NCBI GenBank assembly: GCA_016786485.1
Contig: JAEUWD010000059.1
Location: forward strand, 1-40,504
Source: Bacteriovoracaceae bacterium
Lineage (GTDB): Bacteria; Bdellovibrionota; Bacteriovoracia; Bacteriovoracales; Bacteriovoracaceae
Direction of reading: 5' to 3'
Length of the DNA: 40,504 bases
Each line of letters begins with the position of its first letter. Within the stretch, counting starts at the first letter, position 1. The notes beneath the pieces were generated by a model. It did not search any database. It saw nothing but the letters and a program-made list of their open reading frames with translations, and was not told the DNA's origin. This document shows, in pieces, positions 6,109 to 12,396 of the stretch. Both the position numbers and the translations under genes were made by a program.

Positions 6109-6447
6109 TTAGAGTTCGATCACCACGCTACTATCTTCAGAAGCTGATTCTAAACCAAACTTCTCGCAGAAATCTAAATCGAGCTCTGCTGCTTTTTTCG
6201 TCGTCGCTCCTAAAGTACACAGAACCCACATCCCAGCTGTGGTCGACGATGCTATCGCCTGGGTAGAAATCGAAATTATTTCGTGACCGTGCTTTACCAG
6301 TTCATAGGTGAGTTTATCAAATTCTTTTTCTTGGTAGCCCTTTTTACGGTTTGGAGGGGCCGGAATGAAGTAGGTAAAGGTTTTTATCGTGTAGTATTTT
6401 TGTCTGCTTTTGGGGATGAAAGAATTAATTAGATTTAAAAAACTCAA
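6109..6447 (-). CDS. Small cytoplasmic protein of unknown function, TTG start
   Basis: This is a 112-residue protein with no signal peptide. The middle (KLTYELVKHGHEIISISTQ, then a small-residue-rich stretch and WVLCTLGATTKKA) suggests an alpha/beta fold of the kind seen in small DUF4177-like proteins, but I cannot assign it. The start is TTG at 6445-6447, chosen because AGGAGG (6459-6454 on this strand) lies six bases before it and no ATG fits. It is the first gene of the operon with the lipoprotein and ferredoxin, ending directly at the lipoprotein start codon. Confidence 0.65.
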   Translation of the reverse strand: MSFLNLINSFIPKSRQKYYTIKTFTYFIPAPPNRKKGYQEKEFDKLTYELVKHGHEIISISTQAIASSTTAGMWVLCTLGATTKKAAELDLDFCEKFGLESASEDSSVVIEL

Positions 6448-6555: not shown

Positions 6556-6574
6556 GAAGGAAAAAAATTCCTTC
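6556..6574. promoter_or_regulatory. Inverted repeat upstream of the small RNA promoter
   Basis: GAAGGAA (6556-6562) and TTCCTTC (6568-6574) form a perfect 7-bp inverted repeat with an AAAAA spacer. It is centred about 56 nt before the predicted start of the small RNA at 6621, the position typical of an activator site. The GacA-bound elements upstream of rsmY/rsmZ lie at a comparable place in Pseudomonas, though their sequence differs. It could instead be a weak hairpin with no role. Confidence 0.4.
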
Positions 6575-6608
6575 CAAGATTTTTACTTTTTATTATTTTC
6601 AGTTTGGG

Positions 6609-6614
6609 TATAAT
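6609..6614 (+). promoter_or_regulatory. -10 box of the intergenic small RNA
   Basis: A perfect TATAAT lies 6 nt before the first base of the predicted RNA. The upstream region is very T-rich; TTTACT at 6582-6587 is the nearest -35-like hexamer but its spacing (21) is too long, so an activator may be needed. Confidence 0.6.
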
Positions 6615-6620
6615 TAAAGT

Positions 6621-6699
6621 GTAGGTGACAGGATGTTGCCGATAGTAGACAGGATGTCTGACAAGTTGGGGAGCCATGCAGGGGCTCCCTTTCTTTTTT
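6621..6699 (+). ncRNA. Predicted CsrA-sequestering small RNA (CsrB/RsmY type)
   Basis: The unit lies between the divergent starts of the 6447 and 6747 genes and belongs to neither. It begins 6 nt after TATAAT and ends in an intrinsic terminator, giving about 79 nt. GACAGGATGT occurs twice (6627-6636, 6648-6657). Each copy sits at the tip of a hairpin: arm 6624-6630 pairs with 6634-6640 (two G-U pairs), and AGACA 6647-6651 pairs with TGTCT 6655-6659, so GGA is in the loop in both. CAGGAUG in hairpin loops is the known repeat of CsrB, and ACA-GGAUGU is close to the CsrA SELEX consensus. The RNA would bind and titrate CsrA/RsmA. It has only two clear sites, so it is smaller than RsmX/Y. Function is inferred from motif and structure; expression is untested. 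Confidence 0.6.
6668..6699 (+). terminator. Intrinsic terminator of the small RNA
   Basis: GGGAGCC (6669-6675) pairs with GGCTCCC (6683-6689) around a 7-nt loop and is followed by TTTCTTTTTT (6690-6699). No plus-strand protein gene lies between 4577 and here, so this terminator needs a separate short transcript to explain it. Confidence 0.8.
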
Positions 6700-6746: not shown

Positions 6747-8276
6747 ATGTCTAACAGTCACGATAAAGCCGATAGTTTCTTAGCTATTGCTCCTCAGTTT
6801 CATCTTGGGAAACTTGAGACAGAATCTTTTCACCCTGAGACAAATCTCCTCTCAGAATGGGCGAAAACCGATTTGAAAAAAGCCTACACCGTTCTTAAAA
6901 AAATTGATCAAGATGCGATTGAAAAAATGCAACCAGTACTACGCAATCTCCACACGCTTCACTTAAAAATAAAAGCAACGTTTAAGCATGGGCATAAAAT
7001 TTTTCTTTGTGGTTGTGGTGCCACCGGTAGGCTATCTTTAGCGCTCGAGGCCCTTTGTCGTCAGCAAAACCCTAATGCTCAAGTCATCTCTTTTATGGCC
7101 GGCGGGGACGTGGCACTGATTAAATCCATCGAGAGCTTCGAAGATAAGGTGGATTACGGCGCCAGACAGTTGCGGGAACTAGGTTTTTCAGAAGGTGACC
7201 TGCTCATTAGTTGTACTGAAGGTGGAGAAACTCCATTTGTTATCGGGGCAACCGAGGAAAGTTTAAAAATTTCAAAAAATAATCCTTATTTTCTTTTCTG
7301 TAACCCAATGGAATTACTCTCGAAGCTGGTGGAACGTAGTCGCCAAGTGATTGAAAATCCTCGAATTGAGAAAATTGAAATTCGCACTGGTCCGATGGCT
7401 CTTTCTGGTAGTACTCGCATGCAGGCAAGCACGGTTCTTATGATGGGCGTGGGCTTAGGGTTGATGGGGGATTATCCTGCCTTTGAACTATTTCAAGCTG
7501 AATATGAAAAAACCAAGAATTTTTTAGATAGTCTCGATTATGGAGTGCTAAAAGCTTTTACCGAAGAAGAGTCGGCTTGTTATGCTCGCAAAGAATATAT
7601 TCTCTATAAGACACAGGCCCATTTAGGGATTTCGATTTTGACTGATACTGCTGAACGTTCTCCGACCTTCAGTCTTATTCCTTATGAAAATGAACAGGAT
7701 GCTAACCTTATTCCAAGTTTAAGTTACCTTTGTTTAAAAGATGCGAAAAATAGTGAAGAGGGATGGTTAAAACTTTTAGGTCGAAGGCCACGTTGTTTAG
7801 AGTGGCCAGAATTTAATGGTACGATCGGTATGAAACGCTTTCTTGGTTTTGATATTGGTCAAGGGTCAGAGATGAAACGAGCAGAGCGAGTAGGCGCTAA
7901 ACAGCACCTATTTGAGATTTATCAAGATGGTATGGTTCTTAACTGCCGTTTGAATAATTGCCGGGCCCAGTTGAATTTGCAAGAACAGTCTATTTTAAGT
8001 ATTCACCTTGCGATTAAAGTCCTACTCAATGCTCATTCGACTTTAATTATGGGTAGATTAGGTCGCTTCAATGGAAATATTATGACTTGGGTTCGACCTA
8101 GTAATTATAAACTCATCGATCGCAGTACTCGTTATATTCAAAAAATGCTTTCTGAGCAGAAAATCAAAAAAAGTTATGACGAGATTGTGTATGCTTCATT
8201 TGAAATGATTGAAGAGCTTGGTCCCAGTGAACCAATTGTTTTAAAAGTGGTTGAGAAACTCAAGAAAATAGACTAG
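6747..8276 (+). CDS. Double-length SIS-domain protein, MurQ/GCKR family
   Basis: The protein has 509 residues, much longer than bacterial MurQ (about 300) and nearer the two-SIS layout of animal glucokinase regulatory protein. The phosphosugar-binding loop CGCGATGRLSLALE lies at about 88-101 (MurQ has GAGTSGRL), SCTEGGETPF at about 155-164, and GPMALSGSTRMQAST at 215-229 matches the GPE-ITGSTRLKAGT signature of MurQ. MurQ cleaves the lactyl ether of N-acetylmuramic acid 6-phosphate in murein recycling; GCKR-like proteins bind sugar phosphate to regulate. Which activity applies here cannot be read directly; the conserved glutamate after GRL (Glu101) favours a catalytic or ligand role. Its transcript appears leaderless. 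A small exported protein follows 9 nt later. Confidence 0.8.
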   Translation: MSNSHDKADSFLAIAPQFHLGKLETESFHPETNLLSEWAKTDLKKAYTVLKKIDQDAIEKMQPVLRNLHTLHLKIKATFKHGHKIFLCGCGATGRLSLALEALCRQQNPNAQVISFMAGGDVALIKSIESFEDKVDYGARQLRELGFSEGDLLISCTEGGETPFVIGATEESLKISKNNPYFLFCNPMELLSKLVERSRQVIENPRIEKIEIRTGPMALSGSTRMQASTVLMMGVGLGLMGDYPAFELFQAEYEKTKNFLDSLDYGVLKAFTEEESACYARKEYILYKTQAHLGISILTDTAERSPTFSLIPYENEQDANLIPSLSYLCLKDAKNSEEGWLKLLGRRPRCLEWPEFNGTIGMKRFLGFDIGQGSEMKRAERVGAKQHLFEIYQDGMVLNCRLNNCRAQLNLQEQSILSIHLAIKVLLNAHSTLIMGRLGRFNGNIMTWVRPSNYKLIDRSTRYIQKMLSEQKIKKSYDEIVYASFEMIEELGPSEPIVLKVVEKLKKID

Positions 8277-9959: not shown

Positions 9960-10044
9960 AACACATATCCTTCATCTGGCCCTACGAGCTATCTTTTGTT
10001 ACAAATGAGGGTATACAAGACAATTTGCTGCATTGCAAGGTTTT

Positions 10045-12396
10045 ATGAAGACCAAAGTTATTATAGCTCAACTAGGATCGCCTAAGTCACCGAAGGTTAG
10101 TGACGTCAGGACCTTTTTAAAAGAGTTTTTAGGGGACCCGCGGGTCGTCGATATCAATCCTTGGCTTTGGAAGCTGATTTTATACCTTTTTGTCCTGCCT
10201 TTCCGTCCTAAGGCCTCAGCCGAAAAGTATCAGCGTATTTGGGATGGAAACTCTTTTCCTTTAATCCGCATTACCCAAAGTTTTGCGCAAAAGCTGTCTA
10301 GGAAACTCGCACCCAATATTGAAATCAATGTGGCCTTTTTATTAAGCTCACCGCGAGTACGAGATATTTTTAATGCTTGGGAAAAAGAAGATGTCACAAC
10401 GAGAGCTTCGAGTGTGGTGATTTTGCCTCAGTTCCCGCAATACGCCGAAAGCACCGTGGGTAGTGTGAACGATGTCGTGAATGCCGATCTTGCCCGTCGT
10501 GTGAATATTCCTAGTTTGAAATTTGTGAGTTCCTATCATCGTTTCAAGGCCTTTATTGATTTAGGCGCAAAAAAAATTAATGAAACATTAAAGCGTGAGG
10601 ATATTTCAGAGCTCATAATTTCTTTTCATGGCATTCCTCTACGTCGAGTAATCGAGAAAAAAGATGTTTATTATCTGCAATGCTTTGAAACTTTTTGTTT
10701 GCTGAAAGAAAAGATTACTCTGGACGCTAAAAAGATTCATTTCACTTTTCAATCCCGTTTTGGCAGCGAAGTTTGGTTAGGTCCTGATACCGAAGTTATC
10801 GCCCATAAGCTGGCAGAAGCTGGAGCGAAAAAAATCGCAGTCTATTGCCCAAGCTTCACAGTAGATTGTTTGGAAACCACGGATGAAATCGGATATGAAT
10901 TGCAGGAATCCGTTCATGAAGTTGGGGCCAAGATCGTACAGATTCCTTGTTTAAATGATGACGATGAGTGGGTAGATGCTTATGCTCAATACATTAATAC
11001 TTTAGTTAACGGATCACTCTCAGAGCAACAAGCTCTTGAATATCGCGTAGAGGATAAAAAAATGCAGCAGGAATTACCGAAACAAGTGGATACCAATCAA
11101 CTTTCTCCATCGACGAAAAAAACTTTGAAAATCTTATTCGCTACCATTTTTCTTGATATCGTTGGTTTCTCGATTATATTTCCTTTGTTTCCGGCACTAG
11201 CGAAATACTATCTTACTGTTGATCCGAATAATGTGTTCTTAAATCTAATGCTAGGAAGTTTAAATGCTGTCACTAACGACGGACAGTCGGTAGTTCTCTT
11301 TGGAGGTTTACTTGGAGCACTTTATTCACTCTTACAATTTTTAACGGCGCCGCTTTGGGGAACATTATCGGATCGTTACGGTCGCAAACCGATTTTAGTT
11401 TTCACCATGTTTGGGATGTTTATTAGTTATATCTTCTGGTTTTTTGCCGGCTCGTTCTCGATTCTTATCCTCGGTCGCTTCATCGGTGGTGTTATGGGTG
11501 GAAGTATCTCAACTGCCTCAGCAGTGGTGGCCGATATTACGGAACAAAAAAATCGTTCACGTGCCATGGCGGTGGTAGGAATTGCTTTTGCTTTAGGTTT
11601 TATTTTTGGTCCCGCGATTGGTGGTATTTTATCCATGCTGAATTTAGTTGAGATGCTACCAAGTCTTGAAAGCTATGGTGTAAACCCATTTTCGGCGCCA
11701 GCTTTACTCGCAGGAGTGCTGACTCTTTATAATTGTTTTTCACTCATGTTTTTATTCCCTGAAACTTTGCCTATCGAAAAAAGAGGCAAAGGTGAGATTT
11801 TTCGTTCTGCCAATCCGTTACAACTTTTTAAGCCGTTACCTATTCGTGAAGTGAATATTACGAACCTCGCTTATTTTATTTTTATTTTTGCTTTTTCAGG
11901 TATGGAATTTACGCTGACTTTTTTGGCGGTTGAAAGACTGGGTTTTACTTCGCTTCAAAACGGTTACATGTTTATCTTTATTGGTTTAATGATTGCGCTG
12001 GTGCAAGGTGGATACGTACGGCGTCGAGCAAATCAAGTGGGTGAAGTCAAAATGGCGATTCAAGGTTTCATTCTTTTAATCCCTGGACTTTTACTCATTG
12101 CTTGGGCCCACCACGTCGGACTGCTCTATGCTGGTCTTTTCTTTTTGGCGATTGGTTCGGCCATGAGTATTCCAACTTTAACCAGCTTAGTTTCCGTTTA
12201 TACACCAGCAGAGTTACAGGGGAAGAGTCTTGGTATCTTCCGCTCGCTCGGTTCTCTAGGGAGAGTTTTAGGCCCAACCTGTGCGAGTCTCATTTTTTGG
12301 AAATATGGTTCGCAATGGACTTATATTATCGGCACCGCGATTATTATTTATCCGATTTTACTTATGAAAAAATTAGGGAATAAAAAGATCGTCTAA
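10045..12396 (+). CDS. Ferrochelatase fused to an MFS transporter
   Basis: One open frame of 783 residues encodes two proteins. Residues 1 to about 325 are ferrochelatase (HemH), which inserts iron into protoporphyrin: LGSPKSP near the start, SFHGIP with catalytic His195, FQSRFG-EVWLGPDT, and PSFTVDCLETTDEI with Glu277. From about 360 on, an MFS permease follows with roughly 12 membrane helices, opening with FLDIVGFSIIFPLFP and carrying motif A GTLSDRYGRKP, as in TetA-type drug exporters. The linker is hydrophilic. Start ATG 10045 (AAGG just before) fits the family; TTG 10033 is less likely. An in-frame ATG at 11062 has AGAGGA eight bases before it, so the transporter may also be made alone. 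The fusion suggests a porphyrin or haem transport role, which is inference. Confidence 0.9.
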   Translation: MKTKVIIAQLGSPKSPKVSDVRTFLKEFLGDPRVVDINPWLWKLILYLFVLPFRPKASAEKYQRIWDGNSFPLIRITQSFAQKLSRKLAPNIEINVAFLLSSPRVRDIFNAWEKEDVTTRASSVVILPQFPQYAESTVGSVNDVVNADLARRVNIPSLKFVSSYHRFKAFIDLGAKKINETLKREDISELIISFHGIPLRRVIEKKDVYYLQCFETFCLLKEKITLDAKKIHFTFQSRFGSEVWLGPDTEVIAHKLAEAGAKKIAVYCPSFTVDCLETTDEIGYELQESVHEVGAKIVQIPCLNDDDEWVDAYAQYINTLVNGSLSEQQALEYRVEDKKMQQELPKQVDTNQLSPSTKKTLKILFATIFLDIVGFSIIFPLFPALAKYYLTVDPNNVFLNLMLGSLNAVTNDGQSVVLFGGLLGALYSLLQFLTAPLWGTLSDRYGRKPILVFTMFGMFISYIFWFFAGSFSILILGRFIGGVMGGSISTASAVVADITEQKNRSRAMAVVGIAFALGFIFGPAIGGILSMLNLVEMLPSLESYGVNPFSAPALLAGVLTLYNCFSLMFLFPETLPIEKRGKGEIFRSANPLQLFKPLPIREVNITNLAYFIFIFAFSGMEFTLTFLAVERLGFTSLQNGYMFIFIGLMIALVQGGYVRRRANQVGEVKMAIQGFILLIPGLLLIAWAHHVGLLYAGLFFLAIGSAMSIPTLTSLVSVYTPAELQGKSLGIFRSLGSLGRVLGPTCASLIFWKYGSQWTYIIGTAIIIYPILLMKKLGNKKIV

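Follow-up and report, generated by a model that had tools for sequence, protein, structure and literature searches.

A probable minimal CsrA-sponge RNA in the Bacteriovoracaceae, a family in which csrA adjoins fliW

Does a 299-nt gap in the genome of a Bacteriovoracaceae bacterium encode a small RNA that sequesters the translational regulator CsrA? The gap lies in a stretch of 40,504 nucleotides (the window) and is flanked by a minus-strand open reading frame (ORF) of 112 aa at 6109-6447 and a plus-strand ORF of 509 aa at 6747-8276. Gammaproteobacteria are the group in which Csr sponge sRNAs have been documented. In the open literature, which is what our search covered (subscription papers lay outside it), no report of such an RNA was found for Bdellovibrionota. 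The initial annotation of the window had proposed a CsrB/RsmY-type RNA with two CsrA sites, on the basis of a TATAAT box, two hairpins with CAGGAUG at the tip and an intrinsic terminator. When the locus was read directly, folded and scanned for terminators, all of these elements were found where they had been described, and the extent of the gap was correct as well. The candidate sRNA gene is thus intergenic and free-standing, with the following layout:

6109..6447, minus strand: divergent gene for a 112-aa protein, the conserved neighbour on the promoter side (homologue in 75/91 loci)
6559..6571, plus strand: 13-bp imperfect palindrome with the consensus GGAAAnnnnTnCC, conserved across homologous promoters and presumably the site at which an activator of the sRNA promoter binds
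about 6586-6591, plus strand: -35 region, CTTTTT, a poor match
6609..6614, plus strand: -10 box TATAAT, by direct reading
6620..6699, plus strand: sRNA gene (covariance-model match 6620-6698, 78.9 bits)
6624..6640, plus strand: hairpin 1, GGUGAC-AGGAU-GUUGCC, loop AGGAU
6629-6635, plus strand: CsrB-type repeat CAGGAUG of hairpin 1, with GGA at 6631-6633
6647..6659, plus strand: hairpin 2, AGAC-AGGAU-GUCU, loop AGGAU
6650-6656, plus strand: CsrB-type repeat CAGGAUG of hairpin 2, with GGA at 6652-6654
6668..6699, plus strand: intrinsic terminator, loop AUGCAGG, from the terminator scan (stem 6668-6690, T-tract 6690-6699; the helix covaries across homologues)

The transcript would probably start at about 6620-6621 and end within the T-tract of the terminator. 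Elsewhere in the window (10033-12396, plus strand), a single 787-aa ORF appears by eye to join a ferrochelatase to a major-facilitator transporter, which would be an unusual fusion.

The single sequence folded moderately better than its shuffled versions (z = -2.2), with 9 of 200 shuffles being equally good. In addition, a plain sigma-70 scan of the sequence did not report the sRNA promoter, because its -35 region is poor. With a fold that is mildly unusual and a poor -35 region, the lone sequence would therefore not settle the matter. The evidence that lifts the arrangement far above chance is comparative and of three kinds: the existence of homologues, the matches of a covariance model, and strong covariation around invariant GGA loops.

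When 59 related genomes were searched at the DNA level, 11 clear homologues emerged, all from the same family of predatory bacteria, the Bacteriovoracaceae. A covariance model made from 12 sequences was then applied to 369 genomes from the phylum. It gave one strong match, and hence one gene copy per genome, in 114 of the 129 Bacteriovoracaceae genomes (E 1e-17 to 1.7e-6, cut-off E<=2e-6), and no match of that strength in the phylum genomes outside this family. With a refined model and reading by eye two further, divergent copies were recognised (G026 and G140), in which the terminator loop is changed or lost and both GGA hairpins are kept. No copy was detected in 13 of the 129 family genomes; several of these are incomplete assemblies, but one of them, G111, is 98% complete. 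Weaker covariance matches outside the family (G168, G204, G182 and G163; E 5e-5 to 1e-3) turned out on reading to be unrelated terminators. Two genomes showed a second match of equal score at a contig end (G120, C13/C22; G121, C44/C111), and these probably represent overlapping contig ends and not a second copy of the gene. A pattern scan across about 85,000 GTDB species returned 72 loci, including those of Bacteriovorax stolpii, Bacteriovorax sp. BSW11_IV, Halobacteriovorax marinus and many MAGs. All loci that scored with the model were named Bacteriovoracaceae or carried coarser or looser MAG labels (Bdellovibrio, Bdellovibrionales, Deltaproteobacteria etc.), and the 17 other matches were, on inspection, coding sequences or unstructured chance matches.

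Pairing in hairpin 1 was examined in an ungapped alignment in which GGA was the sole anchor. The six inner pairs were formed in 88% of cells, compared to 38-43% after a shift of the pairing by one or two bases, and up to six pair types occurred per position. In the model-fitted alignment 94.8% of cells were paired, versus 84.2% when shuffled and 36-67% when slid, and the hairpin 2 helix was kept in 91% of cells. Two-sided changes were present in 17 of 19 pairs, and no shuffle reached the observed covariation. Since a model-fitted alignment is biased to its own structure, the ungapped test matters here. The initial annotation had named GGA loops conserved on stems with compensatory changes as support for its reading, and this is what the 91 genomes compared contain: 90 of them retain GGA in the first loop and 84 in the second. 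Loop 2 carries AAGA instead in six genomes that form part of the genus Bacteriovorax, while G012 and G025 have each lost one GGA, in loop 2 and loop 1, respectively.

The letters next to the GGA are also constrained. In the 91 genomes U, A and C occur directly after GGA but G does not, and the next base is nearly always G. The CsrB repeat is CAGGA(U/A/C)G (PMC7652899), and the loop letters match it, down to the exclusion of G from its variable position; the reported context of the CsrA-binding motif is ACARGGAUGU (PMC7652899). The two GGA motifs are 17-24 nt apart in 82 of 83 cases. As a CsrA dimer bridges sites 10-63 nt apart, with an optimum above 18 (PMC7652899), one dimer could, judged from this spacing, hold both sites. 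The stems of the sRNA reach seven or more pairs, and SELEX ligands of CsrA typically have shorter ones (PMC7652899).

These constraints also bear on two other functions that the RNA might have. It could be a structured RNA that binds a protein other than CsrA or a component of the ribosome, for instance as a mimic of the Shine-Dalgarno sequence, which AGGA resembles. However, paired hairpins, the restriction to U, A or C after GGA and a dimer-compatible spacing are specific hallmarks of CsrA sites, and covarying stems spaced in this way would be superfluous in a Shine-Dalgarno mimic; we regard this explanation as highly unlikely. It could also act on mRNAs by antisense pairing while CsrA chaperones or stabilises it, a role that has been reported for SR1 of B. 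subtilis. CsrA is known to bind base-pairing sRNAs with two GGA motifs (PMC7652899), and the geometry seen here is compatible with such a role. On the other hand, no conserved unpaired seed was found, the linker between the hairpins varies in both length (17-24 nt from GGA to GGA) and sequence, and the constant letters are those of the GGA loops and the terminator, which makes antisense pairing an unlikely mode of action.

The terminator loop GCAGG was considered as a third CsrA site and rejected, as it is often without GGA, is absent from G026, one of the divergent copies, and is present in an unrelated terminator of the lineage. This loop, AUGCAGG/AAGCAGG (6676-6684 in the window), recurs at 6290-6315 of locus L213, and therefore looks like a preferred terminator loop and not like a site for CsrA.

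The RNA could in principle be translated, since the ATG in AGGATG at 6633 opens a frame of 22 codons in the window. This ATG is lost in roughly a quarter of the homologues (AGGAAG) and the indels between the hairpins are not multiples of three, so that the probability of a short coding gene is close to nil. Next, the RNA might act in cis on the gene downstream, as its leader, attenuator or riboswitch. In the window the SIS-domain gene at 6747 indeed points in the same direction as the RNA and starts 48 nt beyond its end. Across 91 genomes, however, the downstream gene lies on the opposite strand in 53 and on the same strand in 38, and belongs to at least ten unrelated families. Because the downstream neighbours vary in both family and strand, the sRNA is not a leader, and we give such a cis-acting role only a very small probability. 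From its sequence elements and its variable neighbours, the gene is predicted to be transcribed independently, as a noncoding RNA, between a promoter and a terminator that belong to it alone.

This promoter is conserved. The -10 box reads TATAAT or TATACT in nearly all homologues, and 83 of the 89 homologous promoters carry the 13-bp site GGAAAnnnnTnCC 35-38 nt ahead of this box. In the genome of the window, this site combined with the promoter arrangement occurs only once, at the sRNA promoter. A conserved site together with a weak -35 region suggests control by an activator, and transcription of the sRNA is probably activator-controlled. The initial annotation had mentioned neither this upstream element nor the co-occurrence of the RNA with fliW. 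On the promoter side, the homologue of the 112-aa gene is divergent from the sRNA in every one of the 75 loci (of 91 compared) that have it. The protein matched no Pfam family; its relatives are 110-126 aa long and share the motif YFIPxPPxRKxGYxEKxFDK. The gene may share a regulatory region or a pathway with the sRNA.

A CsrA sponge needs CsrA, and the initial annotation would have been abandoned if the genome lacked csrA. The gene is present as a single copy, in the order flgL-csrA-fliW, and encodes the RNA-contact residues L4 and R44. The csrA loci retrieved from family genomes have the same neighbourhood, although FlgL was not found near csrA in a few reduced genomes and in loci at contig ends. 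L4, R44 and N55 were invariant in all 29 family sequences examined. L4 and R44 are required for RNA binding, and N55 is a reported FliW-contact residue (PMC7652899, PMC13407953). An apparent loss of csrA in genus g18 (G017 and G150) was dismissed: the gene is cut at the contig start in G017, and only a truncated end is present in G150.

To find potential targets of CsrA, the leaders of flagellin genes from six family genomes were compared to control leaders. GGA hairpins of at least 5 bp were present upstream of the Shine-Dalgarno sequence in 13 of 31 flagellin leaders compared to 22 of 290 controls (p = 1.8e-6, which overstates independence because the flagellin leaders are partly paralogous). 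GGA ranked first of the 64 loop trinucleotides in the flagellin leader hairpins. In the window's own genome, one flagellin leader reads GAAUAAAUC-AGGAC-GAUUUAUUC immediately ahead of AAGGAGG. These leaders suggest that flagellin mRNAs are probable CsrA targets. The initial annotation had linked the RNA to lifestyle switching; we found no support for this, and flagellin mRNA is the sole hint at a target.

Two details of the leaders were observed in addition. At L271, L270, L286 and other flagellin loci, the GGA-loop hairpins lie some 30-60 nt ahead of the start codon, just 5′ of Shine-Dalgarno sequences that contain GGA themselves. In G014 (L273) the loop of the flagellin leader reads AAGA, the same letters that some Bacteriovorax genomes have in loop 2 of the sRNA.

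All the comparative data, with conserved GGA loops, covarying stems and csrA in the same genome, strongly support the core of the earlier reading, and the RNA is most likely a minimal two-site CsrA sponge. An activator bound to the 13-bp upstream site would probably switch the promoter on. The resulting RNA of roughly 80 nt would form two short hairpins ahead of its terminator. Both hairpins would display GGA in a CsrB-like loop, and one CsrA dimer could hold the two loops. When abundant, the RNA would bind CsrA and thereby free CsrA-repressed mRNAs, of which the flagellin mRNAs would be the likeliest. As two sites correspond to one dimer per RNA, titration would need a very abundant RNA. The sRNA would act in parallel to FliW, the protein antagonist encoded beside csrA, and both would jointly set the level of free CsrA and hence flagellin translation.

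It is fairly likely that in the Bacteriovoracaceae a single CsrA is antagonised simultaneously by FliW and by a dedicated minimal sponge sRNA, and that sponges arose independently outside the Gammaproteobacteria. A 2020 review stated that joint action of FliW and an sRNA on CsrA was still to be determined in any species (PMC7652899), and a second review called the two mechanisms 'mutually exclusive' (PMC7366521). Given that these reviews either oppose the combination or never saw it, the Bacteriovoracaceae are a natural test case. With a single-copy sponge candidate, a csrA-fliW operon and N55, the question is directly testable in culturable Bacteriovorax and Halobacteriovorax. If true, dual control would disprove the mutual exclusivity of RNA mimicry and FliW, and sponge sRNAs would have an independent origin outside the Gammaproteobacteria. 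For bacteria other than Gammaproteobacteria, we found only unvalidated predictions of such RNAs (PMC4333381). With two sites in 79 nt, the RNA would also come close to a minimal sponge and could serve studies of stoichiometry and structure.

How does this RNA compare to known Csr RNAs? An Rfam scan of the window gave no match at gathering or permissive thresholds. None of the CsrB, CsrC, RsmX, RsmY and PrrB_RsmZ models exceeded its gathering threshold in eight homologous loci; the best score was 20.7 bits for PrrB_RsmZ in one homologue (E 0.83, gathering threshold 44). As no Rfam family tested matched, the RNA would therefore work like CsrB or RsmZ without recognisable homology. The label 'CsrB/RsmY-type' is thus apt for the predicted function, but not for the family, for which there is no match at a curated threshold. 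Like CsrB/CsrC and RsmX/RsmY/RsmZ of Gammaproteobacteria, the gene encodes a free-standing sRNA with its own promoter, probably activator-controlled, and an intrinsic terminator, with GGA hairpin loops, the identical CAGGA(U/A/C)G repeat and csrA in the same genome. It differs in the number of sites, as CsrB carries about 22 GGA, in its upstream site GGAAAnnnnTnCC and in a host that has fliW and an N55-type CsrA. Csr sRNAs under BarA/UvrY (GacS/GacA) control need a response regulator of the UvrY/GacA type bound upstream for their transcription; the present gene likewise has a conserved site upstream.

Similar in shape are TwoAYGGAY (RF01731) and Bacillaceae-1 (RF01690), which likewise have two GGA-loop hairpins and occur outside or partly outside Gammaproteobacteria. 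They were predicted to sequester CsrA from a motif match that was not validated there (PMC4333381). The TwoAYGGAY model, which has 168 positions, gave no match over its cut-off in eight family genomes. In Campylobacter jejuni, which carries fliW, the flaA leader has two GGA hairpins and titrates CsrA (PMC4894983). That RNA is a coding flagellin leader, whereas the RNA of the Bacteriovoracaceae is a separate noncoding gene. Finally, csrA adjoins fliW and encodes an extended CsrA with N55 also in the FliW-CsrA partner-switching systems of B. subtilis, C. difficile and Geobacter (PMC13407953). These have no characterised CsrA-sponge sRNA, whereas the Bacteriovoracaceae appear to have both.
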